Below are positions 16,682 to 24,767 of a stretch of 24,768 nt of DNA, piece after piece. Below the pieces are notes generated by a model. It was not told where the DNA came from, did not search any database, and saw only the letters and a list, made by a program, of their open reading frames with translations. Within the stretch, counting starts at the first letter, position 1, and the number at the start of each line of letters is the position of its first letter. Both the position numbers and the translations under genes were made by a program. The DNA comes from a virus, in IMG/VR virus record IMGVR_UViG_3300033182_000864, positions 1 to 24,768 of that record, one strand, 5' to 3'.

Positions 16682-17674
16682 ATGCCATATGTTAAAAGTA
16701 TTAGAGGAAATTTTTTAAATCCTAAGAAGGAAGGAGAACTTTCCGTAACTGACGTTTATGATTTTGTTGGAGGAGACGAAATCATCACCGCTGGCGGTTA
16801 TAGAATACATATGTTTACTACAGTAGGTGATCATTCTTTTAGAGCAATTCCTAAAGCAAATGTTCCTAGTTCAGTGTTAGCAGCCACAGGTAATTCGCTA
16901 ACTTGCCAAATTCTTGTTGTTGCTGGTGGCGGCGGAGGCGGCACACGAAACGGTGGCGCAGGATCAGGTGGTACTGACGGCGGCGCAGGTGGCGGCGCAG
17001 GCGGCATGATCGATCATCCGGGATTAGAGTTAACTGTTGCAGACTATCCCGTTACAGTTGGTCGCGGCGGCTACGGTGGCAGTAACGGTTATGGATCAGG
17101 CGAAACATATGGAGAGAAAGGATTAAATTCGGTAATGGGTCCTTTAACTGCAATAGGCGGCGGCTATGGCGGCGCAGGCCCTGGTGGTCCAGTTGCTAAT
17201 GGTGGCCCTGGTGGTTCAGGTGGTGGACGCGGTGGCGGCGGTTCTCCAAACACAGGTGTATATGGTATTGCACAACAGCCAGGACAGTCAGGAGATTCAG
17301 GTACCTACGGTTACGGTTTTAATGGTGGCCCTAATCCAAACCAAGCACCATACTCAGGTTCTGGCGGCGGCGGCGCCAGTGGCTCAGGAGGAACAGGAGG
17401 TAACGGTCGTGTTGCTCCAGGCGGATCCGGTAGAAACTCGTCAGCATCAGGCTCAACAATAACATATGCCGGTGGCGGTGGCGGCGGCGGTGGCGGCCCT
17501 TCACCAGTTTCTGCAGGCCCTGGTGGTCCTGGTGGTGGTGGCTCTGGTAATTCAGGCACCGGTTCTACAAACCGCGGCGGTGGCGGTGGTGGCGGCAATG
17601 GTAACCCTGTAGGTGGCCCAGGTGCCGGCGGTCGAGCAGGTCCAGGAATTGTTGTTGTAAGATATACTGCTTAA
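16682..17674 (+). CDS. Glycine-rich tail-fibre adhesin, 330 aa
   Basis: The ATG follows a GAGAG SD. Residues 30-56 carry a GGDEIITAGGYRIHMFTTVG module, and QILVVAGGGGGG starts at 76. From there to residue 318 the chain is a dense array of Gly-rich runs (GGAGGGAGG, GGYGGAGPGG, GGRGGGG, GGGGGGGGG) separated by short loops. The end, PGIVVVRYTA, is the usual closing strand of this class. Such domains resemble the polyglycine-II helical sandwiches of phage tip adhesins (for example gp38 of S16-like phages), whose variable loops bind host receptors. Receptor recognition is therefore the likely role, but no receptor can be named. The GGTGGCGGC-type repeats are prone to slippage and recombination. 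Its stop overlaps the convergent oxygenase gene by four bases. Confidence 0.85.
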   Translation: MPYVKSIRGNFLNPKKEGELSVTDVYDFVGGDEIITAGGYRIHMFTTVGDHSFRAIPKANVPSSVLAATGNSLTCQILVVAGGGGGGTRNGGAGSGGTDGGAGGGAGGMIDHPGLELTVADYPVTVGRGGYGGSNGYGSGETYGEKGLNSVMGPLTAIGGGYGGAGPGGPVANGGPGGSGGGRGGGGSPNTGVYGIAQQPGQSGDSGTYGYGFNGGPNPNQAPYSGSGGGGASGSGGTGGNGRVAPGGSGRNSSASGSTITYAGGGGGGGGGPSPVSAGPGGPGGGGSGNSGTGSTNRGGGGGGGNGNPVGGPGAGGRAGPGIVVVRYTA

Positions 17675-18186
17675 AAACTTTTATGCCAAGCAGCAATGGT
17701 ATAACGTGTACCGTTGATTACTTCGTTAACACTGTGATTAACGATATTACCCGGAAAAGTGAGTAATGCTCCTTTTTCGGGTTTTATTTTTTCACCTTCG
17801 ATAATAGTTTCACCACCTTCAAACTCATCATTTAAATATAGTATTGTAGTATAAGGATGGTATTGATAATCTTTATGAGTAGGTTGATATACTCCAGTAC
17901 GCCATTCAGTAATATGATGATAATTTATAAACGCATTTTGATCAATAGTTTGGATATGTGTTGACAGATCGGCAGTTACTTTTTTAATAACATCAATATC
18001 ACTATCAAACTCATCGTTAGTTAAAGATGCTATAATAGGATATAGATTCAATATAATTCTGTCAGAAAATTTTGTAGAAAACTCGTGTTTGTATCTATTA
18101 TGAAAGTTTATTATTTTATCACACATTTTGTGTGATAAAAAATTTTCTCTAAAATAGACCTTAATTGGTTCCACCTGGCTTACCAA
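17671..18186 (-). CDS. 2-oxoglutarate/Fe(II) oxygenase, prolyl-4-hydroxylase type (A')
   Basis: The double-stranded beta-helix ligands are visible: H104-x-D106 (THKD), distal H151 (VNHSV) and the 2-oxoglutarate-binding R161 before YTIAAW. The YLNDEFEGGET strand is typical of the P4H alpha-subunit family, which hydroxylates proline or other side chains with O2 and 2-oxoglutarate. The start is TTG at 18186, supported by GGGAG seven bases upstream; GTG at 18174 is a weaker alternative. The gene overlaps the upstream oxygenase by 26 bases and is last in the cassette. At 171 aa it is little more than the catalytic core, lacking the longer N-terminal part of its relative at 21507-22160. A perfect inverted repeat lies in codons 16-24. 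Substrate unknown. Confidence 0.88.
   Translation of the reverse strand: MVSQVEPIKVYFRENFLSHKMCDKIINFHNRYKHEFSTKFSDRIILNLYPIIASLTNDEFDSDIDVIKKVTADLSTHIQTIDQNAFINYHHITEWRTGVYQPTHKDYQYHPYTTILYLNDEFEGGETIIEGEKIKPEKGALLTFPGNIVNHSVNEVINGTRYTIAAWHKSF
18114..18140 (-). other. Perfect 12-bp inverted repeat with 3-base loop (RNA hairpin candidate)
   Basis: TTTTATCACACA and TGTGTGATAAAA flank a TTT loop with no mismatch. The repeat lies inside the last oxygenase gene of the cassette, 20 bases beyond the stop of the preceding gene. On the minus-strand RNA the AAA loop is followed at once by an in-frame AUG that forms part of the stem. There is no U-run after the stem, so it is not a classical intrinsic terminator. 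Confidence 0.7.
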
Positions 18187-18844
18187 AAAACTTCTCCCAT
18201 TGGGTTTCAGAGTTCATACGTCTTGCTTCTGGTGGCATACCTAACATAGGTCTTGTATCATACTTTAGTTCTGCTCGAGGACCATTAGCATCAACATAAA
18301 ACATAAATGCTTGTATCTGTTTCTGTCCGTGGTATGGTAAACGCCAATGCGGTAACACATTACCCTTATAGATAACTATGTCTCCTGGTTTTTGTTTTAA
18401 TTCTATTATCTCGCCGTTGGTTCTTTCAAAATAAATAGGCCACGGATCAACTTCGTCATCGACTGAAATACAACAAGATACAGAAAATTCGCTACACGCT
18501 CTGTCAGTATGTCGTTTCATTTCAGATCCGTTGTAATATATTCTTGCATATGAATATGTAGGATAAACTTCGTAGCCTACTGTTTCTTCAACAATATCTT
18601 TCATTACGGATACTGATAATGCTTCAAAGATTAAAGGGCTGTACCAACTAAATGATTTATTAACCATTTCATCCGCAAATGGAAATTCATTACTGTTAGT
18701 AGAATAACATCTATAAGAAGGATCTTGTCTATTAACATTTAAAATTAATTGTTCGCTAAGTTCAAAATCCTTAGCCATTATTTTACACGCATCCGCACTT
18801 ACAACAGACGGTATTATTTCGTAATGATCATTAGCAAAGCTCAT
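18161..18844 (-). CDS. 2-oxoglutarate/Fe(II) oxygenase, HWR type (B')
   Basis: The ATG directly follows the TAA of the carbamoyltransferase, with AGGGA upstream inside that gene. Iron ligands are H112-x-D114 (KRHTDR) and H166 (PHWR). Around them are YPTYSYARIYYNG, WPIYFE, a KPGDIVIYKG strand and FMFYVDANGP. The same signature order occurs in the protein at 20891-21517, so the two are paralogues. The HxD...H triad and the following basic residue (R168) mark an intact member of the Fe(II)/2-oxoglutarate dioxygenase superfamily. Hydroxylation is the most likely reaction, on an unknown substrate. The C-terminal tail of about 38 residues after NGPR is charged and may dock a partner. Translational coupling to both neighbours is likely. 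Confidence 0.87.
   Translation of the reverse strand: MSFANDHYEIIPSVVSADACKIMAKDFELSEQLILNVNRQDPSYRCYSTNSNEFPFADEMVNKSFSWYSPLIFEALSVSVMKDIVEETVGYEVYPTYSYARIYYNGSEMKRHTDRACSEFSVSCCISVDDEVDPWPIYFERTNGEIIELKQKPGDIVIYKGNVLPHWRLPYHGQKQIQAFMFYVDANGPRAELKYDTRPMLGMPPEARRMNSETQWEKFFGKPGGTN
18194..18198 (-). promoter_or_regulatory. Shine-Dalgarno that sets a TTG start
   Basis: On the minus strand GGGAG (CTCCC on plus) sits seven bases before the TTG at 18186, inside the coding end of the upstream oxygenase. It is the reason for preferring TTG over the in-frame GTG twelve bases further in. Confidence 0.6.
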
Positions 18845-20521
18845 TTATTGTCCCTTTATTAATAATTTATGCTCAGGCAGATACAAGTAATCAATTTGTG
18901 AATTGTTTAAAGTGTTTATAGCCTGTTCTACAGTTTCGTTTATACAATCGCCTGCAAGATTAAACGATGTGTTCAATACCATCGGTATTCCGGTAATTTT
19001 TTTAAACTGTTCAATTACCTTATAAAACTCTAGGTTGTTTGTTTTTGTTAGTGTTTGTATTCTACAAGTATCGTCTACGTGCAGTACAGCAGGTATTAAA
19101 TGCTTTTTATCTTGTTTTGCATCTACAGCATACATCATAAAAAGCGATTCGTTTAAACTATATAAATCAAACCATTCTGACGCATTTTCTTTTAATACCG
19201 TAGCAGCAAATGGTCTAAACCATTCGCGTTTCTTAACTGTATTAACTTTGTCTTTTCCTTTAGGATCTCTTGGATCATAAAGGATGCTCCTATTGCCTAG
19301 TGCTCTAGGGCCTGCTTCAGAACGTCCTTGGAACATTGCTACAATATTTCCCTTAGCAATAAGATCTGCAACCTGCTCTGAAGTAACAGAATCAATAACT
19401 TGATTATCTGTTTTAACAACTACTTTATATGTAGGTCCATAATAAATTGATTTCTGTTCTTGTTGAATTTGATTTAACGAGTTTGCAATTATTAATGCAG
19501 CACCTAATGAAGTTCCTGCATCGCTGGAAAGAGGTTCAATATACACGTTAACATCTGAAGGCAAACTTTTTAGTATGTGATAATTAGCAACACAGTTTAA
19601 GAAAAATCCACCAGATAAACATAAATTTTTCTGTCTTGTTTTTGATAGCTCGTCTAGTATTTCTTCTAACACACACTGTTGTATATCTTCTTGGAGATCT
19701 CTAGCAAAGTCTGCTTGCTGCTCAAACTCCGTTAAGCCAGAAACGTTTATAAACCCTTCCTTTAGGTCATTATTTTTGTATTGAAAAATGTCGGTGTTAA
19801 GAACACCGTCCTTGTATATTTGAAATTTTCCTTTAGTACCAAAAGAAGACATTCCCATAACCTTTCCTGCATCTAGTTCGTGAAAATTAAAAAGTTTTGC
19901 AGTTTTTTGAAATGCTAATCCTTCGCTAAAAGAATTACTTAAAAACACACCTTCTGAAATATAATACTTACTACTAGGCAATGAAAAATTGACGCCTATG
20001 TGTTTTCTAACTACTTTAAAATCATTTGGATACGACGCAATGAACGAAGAACTAAGTTCTCTGCCATACGTTCCTTCTAAAAATCGTTTATCGTTAATAG
20101 GGTATTCAGATCCCATACCGTCTTTTATAATACACAACGCAGTGTCAAAACCTGAATTATAAAAAGCACACGCTGCGTGCAATTTATGATGTTCGTTTGA
20201 AAAATCGTATAGTTCAAAACCGTGATTGTAAAATGATTTGCCGAGACGCAGTATTAGTTCGCTATAGTAATCTAAACTTTCAAACATTTCTGCTCTTTGC
20301 ACCGGATGTACACCTGCAACTGCAAGGTAATCAATATAGTCTACGTAATCAACTATCTTATTAATAGCATTAAATGCAAATTCGTCATATTTTATATTTG
20401 AGAGTCTTTCATTTTCAATATGAAACAACAACTCGTTTCCTTTAATAAGACTAACTGACGAGTTGTGTCCTCTATTAATTCCTAGTATGATTTTGTTATG
20501 TGAAGTTTTTGAGTTGATCAT
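18845..20521 (-). CDS. NodU/CmcH (TobZ)-type O-carbamoyltransferase, 558 aa
   Basis: Start ATG at 20521, where the conserved fold begins 10 residues later; 32 more upstream codons are open, but they run out of frame through the preceding gene. N-terminal Kae1-like domain: GINRGHNSSVSLIKG, the HIENER segment, a metal-site-like EHHKLHAACAFYNSGF near 110-125 and IKDGMGSE. C-terminal domain: LCLSGGFFLNCVAN near 300, EPLSSDAGTSLGAA, AGPRALGNRSILYDPRD near 400, REWFRPFAATVL, VDDTCRIQTL and NTSFNLAGD near 515. All family blocks appear intact and the length is usual. The family moves a carbamoyl group from carbamoyl phosphate, via carbamoyl-AMP, onto a hydroxyl. Known acceptors include sugars and antibiotics, and some viral members act on 5-hydroxymethylcytosine. 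The acceptor here is unknown; the four neighbouring oxygenases suggest a hydroxylated substrate. Confidence 0.92.
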   Translation of the reverse strand: MINSKTSHNKIILGINRGHNSSVSLIKGNELLFHIENERLSNIKYDEFAFNAINKIVDYVDYIDYLAVAGVHPVQRAEMFESLDYYSELILRLGKSFYNHGFELYDFSNEHHKLHAACAFYNSGFDTALCIIKDGMGSEYPINDKRFLEGTYGRELSSSFIASYPNDFKVVRKHIGVNFSLPSSKYYISEGVFLSNSFSEGLAFQKTAKLFNFHELDAGKVMGMSSFGTKGKFQIYKDGVLNTDIFQYKNNDLKEGFINVSGLTEFEQQADFARDLQEDIQQCVLEEILDELSKTRQKNLCLSGGFFLNCVANYHILKSLPSDVNVYIEPLSSDAGTSLGAALIIANSLNQIQQEQKSIYYGPTYKVVVKTDNQVIDSVTSEQVADLIAKGNIVAMFQGRSEAGPRALGNRSILYDPRDPKGKDKVNTVKKREWFRPFAATVLKENASEWFDLYSLNESLFMMYAVDAKQDKKHLIPAVLHVDDTCRIQTLTKTNNLEFYKVIEQFKKITGIPMVLNTSFNLAGDCINETVEQAINTLNNSQIDYLYLPEHKLLIKGQ

Positions 20522-20888
20522 TAGGCACCCATAGATCGTGTAACTGGAAAGGTATGTTAAGTTCTTTAAGACGCTTGTATAATCTTTCCTGACAACCTGG
20601 ACCATAAAATGTTTCAATCCTGTCGTTATTAGATTGGTCGGTTGGATCCCATCCTTTTAGTAACATATAAAACTCTGCATACGGATCCCACGCAGCATAT
20701 AGATTAAACCATCCTGCTTCGAAGATTACTTCCCAAAGAGAAACGTCCTCTACTTGCATTTCTCTATCATATGTCCAGTCTACCTTAGGAGGATAAATTG
20801 GTTTATCCGAGTCCATAAAATTGTCATCCCAGAACTCGTCTTCGTCTGCTTTTACTAAGATGTTATATGTTGTTTTAAAAGTTGCCAT
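20496..20888 (-). CDS. Unknown small protein X, 130 aa (paralogue of the 22217 gene)
   Basis: The ATG lies two bases after the stop of the upstream oxygenase, and the 3' end overlaps the carbamoyltransferase start by 26 bases, so it is embedded in the cassette. Key segments are LWEVIFEAGWFNLYAAWDPY, AEFYMLLKGW, ETFYGPGC and LKELNIPF..HDLWVPN. The protein at 22217-22612 has the same order: TWEEIF, VYAAWSPY, VEFYLVV, ETFFGP, IKSLGIT and VWVE. No catalytic motif, signal peptide or membrane helix is visible. The many aromatic residues suggest a compact folded adaptor or a small enzyme. The family is not recognised; tight linkage suggests it acts with the carbamoyltransferase or the oxygenases. 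Confidence 0.85.
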   Translation of the reverse strand: MATFKTTYNILVKADEDEFWDDNFMDSDKPIYPPKVDWTYDREMQVEDVSLWEVIFEAGWFNLYAAWDPYAEFYMLLKGWDPTDQSNNDRIETFYGPGCQERLYKRLKELNIPFQLHDLWVPNDQLKNFT

Positions 20889-20890
20889 TG

Positions 20891-21517
20891 TTACAAGTAC
20901 TCTATATATGATTTATGATGTATGTTTTTACCTATTCTAGGAGTCTTTAATACTCCAATAGATTCACGTTCGTCAAATTTGTATTCTGGATAAGGGCCGT
21001 TTGCATCCACATAATGAAAAAATCCTTGAACGTGCCAAACGTCCTCTTCGTATTTTAATTCTTCTCTCCAGTGTTCAAGATCAACGCCTCTATAAATTAC
21101 TAAATCTCCGGGTTTGAGAGACACACTAGTTCCGTCCATATAGATAGGCCATTGGAATTTTCTGTCATCGTAACTATAACCTAAACACATTGTTGCTGAT
21201 ATTTCACAAGAAGGTCTATCAATATGTTTTTCTAATGTGTCACCGTTTCTATAAACACGATAAAATGAATACGTAGGATACAATGTTAATCCAGTATACT
21301 TTTCCATAGAAGAATGTAAATTTAATAACATTGCTTCCATTGCAGGATCAGCATACTTTGCGTGTGCGCCTAACACCTGTTGTCTATCCGGAGTAAAGTT
21401 CTGTGCTTCGTCAAATAAAGCGTATTGTGTTGCAAAATCAACAAGTTCCTTTGAAACTGCATTTTTTACTACAGCATACCCTTTCTTTTTAAAGTTGTCA
21501 ATTACTTTAGTCGTCAT
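20891..21517 (-). CDS. 2-oxoglutarate/Fe(II) oxygenase, HWR type (B)
   Basis: The ATG at 21517 overlaps the upstream oxygenase by 11 bases, with GGAGG located upstream. Iron ligands are H98-x-D100 (EKHIDR) and H149 (LEHWR), and R151 follows. LYPTYSFYRVYRNG, WPIYMDG, LKPGDLVIYRG and FFHYVDANGP match the protein at 18161-18844 in order and spacing. The product is a probable hydroxylase using O2 and 2-oxoglutarate, with unknown substrate. The N-terminal KKGYAVVKNAVSKELVDFA is the usual entry strand and helix of this superfamily. The C-terminus differs from its paralogue, being shorter and ending in HHKSYIEYL, so the two may act on different partners. Confidence 0.88.
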   Translation of the reverse strand: MTTKVIDNFKKKGYAVVKNAVSKELVDFATQYALFDEAQNFTPDRQQVLGAHAKYADPAMEAMLLNLHSSMEKYTGLTLYPTYSFYRVYRNGDTLEKHIDRPSCEISATMCLGYSYDDRKFQWPIYMDGTSVSLKPGDLVIYRGVDLEHWREELKYEEDVWHVQGFFHYVDANGPYPEYKFDERESIGVLKTPRIGKNIHHKSYIEYL

Positions 21518-22160
21518 AATTTGTAATGCCTCCGGTCTGATCTCGTACCCAAGTTACGAGTGCATATTTAGTACCTTTGGTTACAGGATGCGCTATGTGA
21601 GTGTACGCATAGTTAGAAGGGAATATTAACATCATTCCAGGTTGAGGTTTAATCTTAACATCAAAATTAACAAACTCAATTTCACCACCCTCAAAATCGT
21701 TATTAAGATAGAGTACAACTGTTAATGCTCTACCTGTTTCTGTTCCACCGTCGTAATGGGCTTTATATTGTTGATTATCGCTATACTTCAACAACGAATA
21801 GCGTTCTTGGTAGAAACTTTCATTAATCTTATAGCGGCGACCATACGGATTGATTCCAGCCATAATACACATAAAAAATTGATTGTGTATGTTTTGCATT
21901 AATGGATCATTTTGCGATTCAGCAATGTAACTAATCGCTAGTGCTTTGTTAGTTCGAGCATCTTGGAATACACCGTCGCCTATAGTTGGTGCTCGTACCC
22001 AACTATAATCATTATTTGGATCAGCAACAGCCTGCTCAACAAGATCTATAGTGTGTTGAGGATTTGGCCATACGTTTTCAAAGATATCTACACAACCTGC
22101 TACAGTAGCATCAGGTTTAAGTTCTCCAGGAAACAAGCCGTTTATGTATAATGTTGTCAT
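21507..22160 (-). CDS. 2-oxoglutarate/Fe(II) oxygenase, prolyl-4-hydroxylase type (A)
   Basis: This is the first gene of the minus-strand cassette; AAGGAAGG stands before the ATG. Catalytic residues are H135-x-D137 (KAHYDGG), H191 (AHPVTKG) and the 2-oxoglutarate-binding K198 before YALVTWV. YLNNDFEGGEIEF and KPQPGMMLIFPS are standard P4H-family strands, shared with the smaller protein at 17671-18186. Many P4H-type proteins hydroxylate prolines in structural proteins; in T4-like marine phages they are frequent but of unknown substrate. Residues 1-115 form a helical part with an NPQHTIDLVEQAV segment. As the promoter-proximal gene it probably shares one transcript with the five genes downstream. 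Confidence 0.9.
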   Translation of the reverse strand: MTTLYINGLFPGELKPDATVAGCVDIFENVWPNPQHTIDLVEQAVADPNNDYSWVRAPTIGDGVFQDARTNKALAISYIAESQNDPLMQNIHNQFFMCIMAGINPYGRRYKINESFYQERYSLLKYSDNQQYKAHYDGGTETGRALTVVLYLNNDFEGGEIEFVNFDVKIKPQPGMMLIFPSNYAYTHIAHPVTKGTKYALVTWVRDQTGGITNYDD

Positions 22161-22216: not shown

Positions 22217-22612
22217 TTGGTAAATATTTTTGTGGTAAATTTTAAAAGATATGATGATATCTACCTAACCAATAGCAACGGCATACAAGCGGTTGATCCT
22301 AAGTCCTTGCCTCCAAAAAAGCATTTAGCAAACGAAAAATTTGTGCCAGACATCGCAAATGTTGATACCTGGGAAGAAATCTTCCGCAAACAAAATTATG
22401 TTGGTGTTTATGCTGCCTGGTCGCCATACGTTGAATTTTATCTAGTTGTACACGAGTTATTTCTAAATACAGAATATGCTTGCGAAACATTCTTTGGTCC
22501 TACAGCATTAAATGACACCGTACAACGAATTAAATCTCTTGGCATTACACTAGACAAAGATTTTGTGTGGGTTGAAAGCATTGATCACCAAAACTTTGTT
22601 AATCAAATTTAA
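22217..22612 (+). CDS. Unknown small protein X', 131 aa, TTG start
   Basis: The frame opens after TGA 22205-22207 and the first usable start is TTG 22217 (GTG 22232 is the alternative); no ATG lies ahead of the conserved core. There is no clear SD. The core TWEEIF, VYAAWSPYVEFYLVV, CETFFGP, IKSLGIT and VWVESID matches the minus-strand protein at 20496-20888 in order. It is divergently placed from the oxygenase operon, and its stop overlaps the 83-aa gene by 14 bases. Function unknown. The weak start could mean low expression or early decay, although the reading frame is intact. Confidence 0.75.
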   Translation: MVNIFVVNFKRYDDIYLTNSNGIQAVDPKSLPPKKHLANEKFVPDIANVDTWEEIFRKQNYVGVYAAWSPYVEFYLVVHELFLNTEYACETFFGPTALNDTVQRIKSLGITLDKDFVWVESIDHQNFVNQI

Positions 22613-22930: not shown

Positions 22931-23896
22931 ATGGCAACAAACGCAGCACCAATTGTAGACAGAATACGAATCATTCCAAGACCAGAAGATTTTCTTGATA
23001 GAAATGTTGGCTCTAGCGGCGAAGTTTTCTTTTCAAGAGAAACAAATAGTTTAAGAGTTTACAGCGGTAAGGTCGCTGGCGGCTATGAATTAGCAAAAAC
23101 TGATTTAACTAACATATCAAACAGTGACTTTGCAACCAAAGCTACAGCAGCAGGTGTAGGGGGAAGCGCAACACCTGAGTGGGATGCTATTACTGGTAAG
23201 CCTAACTTTGCTACAGTGGCAACTACTGGCGATTACAACGATCTAACAAATAAGCCATCAGACATTGACTTATCATCATATGCTACTATTGACTATGTTA
23301 ATAGCCAAATAGTAGCAAGCAATGGTAAAACTTTTAGTTTTGCAGTCGCAGCAGACGATTCAACACAAGTAGAAATATCATCAAACGAAACAATTAAATT
23401 TAGTGGCGGCCCTGGCATAACGACTACTAGCGATGCTGAAGGAAATATCACTATATCAACATCAACTACAGGGTTATTTTCTGGACTATCTGATGCAACT
23501 ACCGCAAGTTTAACAATTGATAAGATCTACCAACCTGCAATTACTACCTTTCGATTAGAAAATGTAGGAGTAACAGCATTTACGTTTAGTCCGCATTACA
23601 CAGGCAATAACCCAACTGTTTACGCAATATCCGGAACTACTGTGGCATTTGACTTAGACAACATTGGCGGCCATCCTTTTGAAATACAGGATTCATTAGC
23701 AGCACCATTTAATACTGGATTAGTTCACGTTGCTGCCAACGGAACTATATCAACTGGCGCTGACGCACAAGGTAAGGATTCAGGAACGCTTTACTGGACT
23801 ATTCCTGAAGCAGAAGGCGGTACATTCCGATACCAGTGCCAAAATCACGTAGCAATGGTTGGTGCTATTTCTGTTAAGAGATTATCACTTATCTAA
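22931..23896 (+). CDS. Fibre/virion protein with C-terminal cupredoxin-like domain, 321 aa
   Basis: The ATG has a weak SD, but the late-type promoter and N-terminus support it. Residues 10-60 (RIIPRPEDF, GEVFFSRETNSLRVYSG) and the repeat-like ITGKPNF...YNDLTNKPS at about 87-110 are typical phage fibre motifs. Residues 200-321 look like a cupredoxin: the GGHPFEI strand carries H248, and near the end FRYQCQNHVAMVGAISV carries C303, H306 and M309. C-x2-H-x2-M is the amicyanin-type ligand loop, so all four type 1 copper ligands are present. The domain is fused to a structural protein, with no signal peptide and no sign of being a free plastocyanin. Copper binding and any electron-transfer role are untested; a purely structural sandwich is possible. 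Confidence 0.85.
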   Translation: MATNAAPIVDRIRIIPRPEDFLDRNVGSSGEVFFSRETNSLRVYSGKVAGGYELAKTDLTNISNSDFATKATAAGVGGSATPEWDAITGKPNFATVATTGDYNDLTNKPSDIDLSSYATIDYVNSQIVASNGKTFSFAVAADDSTQVEISSNETIKFSGGPGITTTSDAEGNITISTSTTGLFSGLSDATTASLTIDKIYQPAITTFRLENVGVTAFTFSPHYTGNNPTVYAISGTTVAFDLDNIGGHPFEIQDSLAAPFNTGLVHVAANGTISTGADAQGKDSGTLYWTIPEAEGGTFRYQCQNHVAMVGAISVKRLSLI

Positions 23897-24151
23897 GTCG
23901 TTAAAAATTTGGTAAAGACGTTTTCTTACCTTTGCTAACTTAGTTACATACTCTTTAGTTTTTGACGGGTCAGGATATCCTCTACTAAGAGTTTCGTGCT
24001 CGTTATCTATCAGTGATGCTTGATGCTTAAATTCTTTCATTAGACGTTCAACTTCAGTTTTTAATTTAGGATTGGTTATCCTGTGAACATTCTCAGTAAA
24101 TCGTTTTAGATCAACAATGTATTGTGTAGATTTTGTTAAGCGTAAAGACAT
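23885..24151 (-). CDS. Small helical protein, 88 aa, unknown function
   Basis: The ATG follows the cupin's TAA with no gap, with AGGTGG acting as SD. The protein is highly charged and predicted almost all helix: YIVDLKRFTENVHRI, LKTEVERLMKEFKHQASLID, KEYVTKLAKVRKRLYQIFND. This suggests a helical bundle or coiled coil. A break at RGYPDPSKT links two helical halves. There is no membrane segment. It is translationally coupled to the cupin and its stop overlaps the fibre gene by 12 bases. The family is not recognised; small helical proteins of this kind are common and uncharacterised in T4-like marine phages. Confidence 0.75.
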   Translation of the reverse strand: MSLRLTKSTQYIVDLKRFTENVHRITNPKLKTEVERLMKEFKHQASLIDNEHETLSRGYPDPSKTKEYVTKLAKVRKRLYQIFNDLDK

Positions 24152-24514
24152 TTAACCACCTATATTTGAAGCAGGTATTACAGTATAAAAATCATTAGAG
24201 TCATTAGCATTGCTTACCTGAGTTACTGAACTATTTGGTATTAAACATTCAAGCGATACTGGAGATAACGGCTCTGCCTTATATACTGATCCTTCCACTA
24301 ACTCTTGTTGATACACCTTTCCGTCATTAGTATCAATCCACCGCACCATAAATTTTCCATTGTTTACAAACCAAGACTTAGTTGTTTCCTTATGAAAATG
24401 GAAAGGTGTTTTGCTGCCAGGCTGATTAAAGATTAATATCTTACCGCAGTATGTTTCTTCGTCTGACCAGGTAATTTCCATACCCCAATCTTTTTTGTAT
24501 TGTTCTTCTGACAT
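24152..24514 (-). CDS. Cupin-domain protein, 120 aa
   Basis: This is a small single-domain RmlC-like cupin. Motif 1 is visible as GSKTPFHFHKETTKSWFV with H39, H41 and E43 as likely metal ligands, then NNGKFMVRWID. The motif 2 region (GSVYKAEPLSPVSLECL) lacks the usual His, so only part of the metal site is conserved. The family includes sugar epimerases, isomerases and sugar-binding proteins. The PFHFHK/SWFV pattern resembles the cupin half of mannose-6-phosphate isomerase-like phage proteins, but the reaction is unknown. The ATG is 22 bases after the stop of the Nudix-like gene and the frame abuts the next start, so the three minus-strand genes probably form one operon. Confidence 0.82.
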   Translation of the reverse strand: MSEEQYKKDWGMEITWSDEETYCGKILIFNQPGSKTPFHFHKETTKSWFVNNGKFMVRWIDTNDGKVYQQELVEGSVYKAEPLSPVSLECLIPNSSVTQVSNANDSNDFYTVIPASNIGG

Positions 24515-24536: not shown

Positions 24537-24767
24537 TTAGAAAACTGTTTCTAACTTGTTTAAGTTAGTTTTTTTATTTAAAGTATTTTGTAATCCATAG
24601 TGCAAAGGTTTGGGCCACTTGCCAAATGATACCCAGGCGTATCCATCATGCTCGTCGTTTAATATGGGCATGAATTCTTCCTTAACTACACAAAGGTACG
24701 TATGAAAAAGAAACTGAGTATCGTTAGATACGAACGTTTCTAAAGGTAAGGTTTTCTTAATTTCAAC
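24537..24767 (-). CDS. C-terminus of a probable Nudix hydrolase (partial)
   Basis: A minus-strand frame enters from the right edge and ends at TAA (24537-24539). The 76 visible residues include FLFHTYLCVVKEEFMPILND, EHDGYAWVSFGKWPKPLH and YGLQNTL. The F.TYL..V..EF.P.LN.EH..Y.W pattern followed by LH.GL...L is the usual C-terminal half of phage MutT/Nudix proteins that hydrolyse nucleoside diphosphate derivatives. The diagnostic Nudix box would lie upstream, outside the window, so the call rests on the C-terminal pattern only. Confidence 0.6.
   Translation of the reverse strand, partial: VEIKKTLPLETFVSNDTQFLFHTYLCVVKEEFMPILNDEHDGYAWVSFGKWPKPLHYGLQNTLNKKTNLNKLETVF

Follow-up and report, generated by a model that had tools for sequence, protein, structure and literature searches.

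An antisense operon of 2-oxoglutarate oxygenases and a carbamoyltransferase beside an adhesin gene of a T4-like marine phage, and its possible role in adhesin modification

Why the tail-fibre region of a phage should carry an antisense operon of 2-oxoglutarate (2OG) oxygenases and a carbamoyltransferase (CTase), and on what these enzymes would act, is the question raised by IMG/VR record IMGVR_UViG_3300033182_000864, a fragment of a T4-like marine phage that was analyzed in its entirety (24,768 b; the window). Six overlapping or abutting minus-strand open reading frames (ORFs) occupy positions 17671–22160 of the window, transcribed in the order OG1, OG2, U, CTase, OG3, OG4 (four oxygenases, the CTase, and a small protein, U), between the gene for a glycine-rich adhesin (16682–17674, plus strand) and a plus-strand gene at 22217–22612. 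We tentatively propose, at a little short of an even chance, that this cassette tailors the adhesin, with prolyl hydroxylation by the oxygenases and independent O-carbamoylation by the CTase on an adhesin hydroxyl. This proposal is based on the architecture of the locus, the covariation of adhesin proline with neighboring oxygenases, the affinity of OG1 and OG3 to prolyl hydroxylases, and the presence of a distant CTase at the equivalent position in another contig (L201). The prolyl hydroxylation part appears better supported than the carbamoylation part.

The operon and the adhesin–U slot

The initial annotation had described a tight minus-strand operon of four intact 2OG oxygenases, an intact CTase, and a small protein next to tail genes, and the domain and motif content agrees with that description. 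Tail genes flank the operon, among them that of the adhesin (Y), which matches Gly_rich_2 (PF21722) over the cut-off (E = 4.7e-07), contains 23 prolines (nine in X-Pro-Gly), and is the proposed substrate. The gene order across the window is Y> O< F< C< U< F< O< U> (adhesin, OG4, OG3, CTase, U, OG2, OG1, U). What is new is this placement: the cassette lies antisense between the PF21722 glycine-rich adhesin gene and the partner gene U. One copy of U, with no assigned fold, is within the operon (20496–20888, minus strand); its paralog on the adhesin strand (22217–22612), overlooked in the initial annotation, is a proposed chaperone or partner that would assist the adhesin. U had no match in the PDB, Pfam, PHROG, or a collection of phages.

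U-family genes were gathered at 47 loci. In 33 of 61 cases, U immediately follows an adhesin gene in the same orientation (gaps of −19 to +23 b); the antisense cassettes occupy the space between the two genes or the position next after U. The cassettes are of several types: CTase–F–O, where F is the OG2/OG3 family and O another oxygenase; oxygenases alone; oxygenases plus flavin halogenases; and cassettes with a methyltransferase. The order Y>C<F<O<U> was found in five loci (from two lineages), and Y>C<U> in L201. Flavin-dependent, tryptophan-type halogenases (PF04820) are frequent in the antisense cassettes by the adhesin–U pair (L172:8337-9929, L176, L181, and others), and one slot cassette includes a methyltransferase (L174:6536-7108). 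Among cultured cyanophages, S-MS29, S-CAM8, P-RSM4, and S-SSM5 carry the same set beside fibre genes, with about six genes of oxygenase type, one for a CTase, and one for a glycine-rich protein; in S-SSM5 the glycine-rich protein adjoining the CTase is 390 aa.

A glycine-rich receptor-binding tip is shared with the polyglycine adhesins that have chaperones, gp38 of S16 and PP01 (PMC12892980) and gp24–gp25 of Pam3 (PMC9608196); Pam3 gp24 requires a small dedicated chaperone (PMC9608196). Unlike in those systems, U is without a detectable PDB or Pfam relative, and no hydroxylase has been reported for those phages in the literature covered.

Oxygenase affinities and adhesin proline

OG1 (21507–22160, minus strand) and OG4 (17671–18186, minus strand) match PF13640 (E = 3e-17 and 7e-11, respectively) and retain the HxD…H…K/R motif, including the basic 2OG-binding residue (H104, D106, H151, and R161 in the P4H-type OG4). 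The closest solved relatives of OG1 are collagen-type prolyl 4-hydroxylases (P4H) (E = 2e-10), followed by the lysyl hydroxylase LH3 and prolyl 3-hydroxylase 1 (P3H1). The PHROG families matched by these two ORFs (phrog_2297 and phrog_274) are labeled “DNA endonuclease” or “DNA endonuclease V,” labels that look wrong for proteins that match PF13640.

OG3 (18161–18844, minus strand) and OG2 (20891–21517, minus strand), which belong to one family, had no Pfam match, and their sole match was phrog_2954 (T4-GC615), labeled “ferrochelatase.” Both retain HxD…H, with H112, D114, and H166 invariant in the family alignment; no metal-binding residue is lost in any of the four oxygenases of the operon. 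An AlphaFold2 model of OG3 (predicted local distance difference test score, pLDDT, 83) has a P4H/PHD2 fold, matching the PDB structures of a Pseudomonas putida prolyl hydroxylase and human PHD2 (best E = 3e-10); thus, the count of four oxygenases stands, and “ferrochelatase” is a mislabel for this family. The canonical Arg/Lys approximately 9–12 residues past the distal His is not conserved in OG2 and OG3, which have an invariant Arg immediately after that His (HWR); 2OG binding by these two enzymes would be non-canonical.

The P4H-type fold and, for OG1 and OG4, the HxD…H…K/R motif are common to the window enzymes and the collagen-type P4H (3itq, 5hv0, and the chlorella virus P4H 5c5t), a family whose substrates include X-Pro-Gly or proline-rich repeats, similar to the proposed adhesin target. 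The window enzymes differ in being phage-encoded, several per operon, and antisense to an adhesin gene, and the adhesin domain is polyglycine rather than Gly-X-Y; no collagen Gly-X-Y repeats that could serve as substrate were found in the window. Related phages encode collagen-like Gly-X-Y fibre proteins (GPT/GAT repeats) that lack a nearby oxygenase gene (L235, L284, L227, L241, and others).

Adhesins were clustered at 60% identity and divided into those with an oxygenase within four genes (49 clusters) and the remainder (33 clusters). Proline makes up 6.5% of the glycine-rich core in the former vs. 2.7% in the latter (p = 1.8e-10), and is the most different of the 20 residues between the two sets; neither the guanine-plus-cytosine content of the locus nor background proline explains the difference. 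The effect is present in U-anchored loci alone (p = 7e-6), declines with gene distance, and is seen in 32 of 36 nearest cross-label matched pairs. Proline is followed by glycine in 37% of instances with a nearby oxygenase vs. 26% without. In phylogenetic regression (PGLS), the association was retained on the adhesin tree (p = 1.8e-5) and in the combined set (p = 2e-8). We consider the association of oxygenases with adhesin proline to be probably real, which lends support to the earlier suggestion that the target is a virion fibre and the residue proline.

Several observations weigh against attributing this pattern to adhesin tailoring. PGLS on the smaller U tree was marginal (p = 0.083), and a pre-specified replication that took an upstream fibre gene as its anchor failed (p = 0.44, with only three oxygenase-positive cases). 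The proline-rich, oxygenase-negative proteins in that replication have Gly-X-Y collagen repeats, a different class, and only after their post-hoc exclusion was a difference obtained (4.85% vs. 2.9%, p = 0.014–0.02, still with three positives). Two of the four closest cross-label pairs were in the expected direction, and in four loci (L177, L196, L197, and L200) the adhesin is poor in proline despite a neighboring oxygenase. Between adhesins with and without a CTase (7 vs. 41 clusters), no residue differs in frequency. The association may also be confounded by lineage, habitat, or host, and host-recognition regions gather cargo genes in general (PMC7029224, PMC3909814).

A rival possibility is that the oxygenases are metabolic cargo, changing 2OG, nitrogen, or small-molecule metabolism in the host, and are found here only since late-region boundaries collect such genes. 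A metabolic role has been proposed for cyanophage oxygenases (PMC3037559, PMC9602691), which are among the commonest accessory genes of T4-like cyanophages, with up to 24 per genome (PMC9602691) and many located elsewhere in the genome; their viral role has “not been specifically investigated” (PMC9602691). However, cargo of this kind predicts neither the association with adhesin proline nor the affinity to collagen-type P4H, and we regard it as decidedly unlikely. For adhesin tailoring, we envisage that the P4H-type oxygenases encoded by the operon inserted between Y and U would hydroxylate prolines, many of them in X-Pro-Gly, in the glycine-rich domain of the adhesin; this could stabilize polyglycine or polyproline-II-like strands, or change receptor loops.

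The carbamoyltransferase and its possible acceptors

The CTase (18845–20521, minus strand) more likely starts at ATG 20521 (558 aa), with TTG 20617 as an alternative. Carbam_trans_N (PF02543, E = 6e-21) and Carbam_trans_C (PF16861, E = 3e-59) are matched above cut-off, and the HHxxH, DGxG, DAG, and GPRALGNRSI motifs are invariant or nearly so across seven aligned sequences; at the sequence level, it is confirmed as an intact NodU/CmcH-type O-carbamoyltransferase. Both domains and the conserved motifs are shared with TobZ and GdmN (matches of 4e-37 to 3e-47), but no sugar or antibiotic pathway adjoins the window CTase, in contrast to the NodU/CmcH/TobZ/GdmN enzymes. A single-protein search of viral contigs returned no close CTase relatives. 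In a CTase tree of 87 loci, the window enzyme falls in a supported clade of 20 (clade A), sister to a clade of 67 (clade B).

The initial annotation had proposed that the enzymes act in series on one substrate; in the adhesin version of this scheme, the oxygenases make fibre hydroxyls (e.g., hydroxyproline) and the CTase carbamoylates those same hydroxyls. The genes share one operon, and 18 of the 20 clade A CTases have an oxygenase within three genes and 17 have an OG2/OG3-family member there, in several different gene orders; the X-Pro-Gly share is also slightly higher with a CTase (p = 0.03, uncorrected). Such co-location is expected in any case, because both gene types collect at the fibre end. 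Moreover, each occurs without the other. OG2/OG3-family genes are found without a CTase in syn9, S-PM2, and ACG-2014b (with seven to eight PF13640 genes each in syn9 and ACG-2014b), and 78 of the 80 loci fetched by this family lack a CTase (present in 2/80). Conversely, no oxygenase was detected on L053 (a 155-kb contig with CTase and GT9-like genes) or L201 (102 kb), although the OG2/OG3-family search was without a positive control and both contigs may be incomplete. In L201, the CTase stands alone between adhesin and U (L201:7426-10384; Y> C< U>), and proline makes up 1.3% of that adhesin. An obligate hydroxylate-then-carbamoylate pathway is therefore unlikely, and we consider carbamoylation of the oxygenase-made hydroxyls, as a whole, improbable; action in series was thus not borne out. 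Because the CTase of L201 shares only 33% identity with that of the window and is from another lineage, CTases have, on these comparisons, entered this slot on two or more occasions, on one of them without accompanying oxygenases.

Alternatively, the CTase may carbamoylate a sugar (e.g., heptose) on the fibre or host surface, with the oxygenases as unrelated neighbors. The family members TobZ and NodU modify sugars, and 63 of the 67 clade B loci have a GT9-like (heptosyltransferase-like) gene close to the CTase. Nucleotidyltransferase, PfkB, cupin, and epimerase genes occur at 35 of the 67, and the OG2/OG3 family at none (0/67). The GT9-like protein (T4-GC302, annotated as hypothetical) has its gene immediately 5′ of that for the clade B CTase (L006:8737-9984, L007:8877-9989, and approximately 60 IMG/VR loci). 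Its sequence had no match in the PDB, and PF01075 was matched by 15 of 27 family members; structure comparison was clear, the model (pLDDT 90) matching the heptosyltransferases WaaC, WaaF, and TibC (E = 1e-8 to 1e-10). Clade B CTases thus probably work with a sugar pathway. The clade of the window shows none: a GT9-like gene is absent from all 20 clade A loci and from the five whole records with clade A CTases, and a glycine-rich protein is encoded in 18 of the 20 loci. The sugar acceptor considered in the initial annotation is therefore plausible for the sister clade and lacks a GT9-like neighbor in the window clade, for which we judge it unlikely.

Modification of DNA bases, the other acceptor that had been considered, has a precedent in the phage-type 5-hydroxymethylcytosine (5hmC) carbamoyltransferase, a homologous member of the same family with a hydroxyl acceptor, for which hydroxyl-then-carbamoyl chemistry is published (PMC8670742); OG1 also has a Tet_JBP match below threshold (E = 0.0067). 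Nevertheless, OG1 is far nearer to protein hydroxylases, the cassette is among fibre rather than nucleotide genes, and the thymidylate-synthase-type hydroxymethylase partner (PF00303) that was sought was absent from 12 related records, the window genome itself being only a fragment. DNA as target is thus disfavored in the relatives, and we consider it very improbable for this cassette. Under adhesin tailoring, the CTase would instead act on the adhesin that the oxygenases hydroxylate, O-carbamoylating a side-chain or glycan hydroxyl without depending on them.

Elsewhere in the window, a small cupin-like protein (24152–24514, minus strand; phrog_7851, “cysteine dioxygenase”) is related to P-SSM2 T4-GC307, a member of a heptose gene cluster in that phage. 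Two short minus-strand ORFs (23885–24151, and 24537–24767, truncated by the end of the record) had no relatives identified.

Cassette components and phage host recognition

CTases and oxygenases of cyanophages have been catalogued before (PMC3037559; PMC9602691), and the parts themselves are therefore not new. Cyanophage T4-GC303 (CTase) and T4-GC101, T4-GC155, T4-GC412, and T4-GC615 (oxygenases) (PMC3037559) are direct homologs of the window genes; they were annotated singly as metabolic or “ferrochelatase,” and the adhesin–U slot is undescribed in the literature covered. No proposal of adhesin prolyl hydroxylation in phages was found in the open-access literature searched, most subscription literature being outside that search.

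A wider possibility, which we advance with more reserve, is that exchangeable antisense cassettes of prolyl hydroxylases, flavin halogenases, methyltransferases, and CTases in the polyglycine adhesin–chaperone slot chemically tailor the adhesins of marine and freshwater phages, with collagen-like hydroxyproline and other post-translational modifications tuning stability or host binding. If adhesin prolines are indeed hydroxylated, a sizeable group of phage genes now labeled “metabolic” would belong instead to host recognition, and collagen-like protein hydroxylation would enter phage receptor binding.

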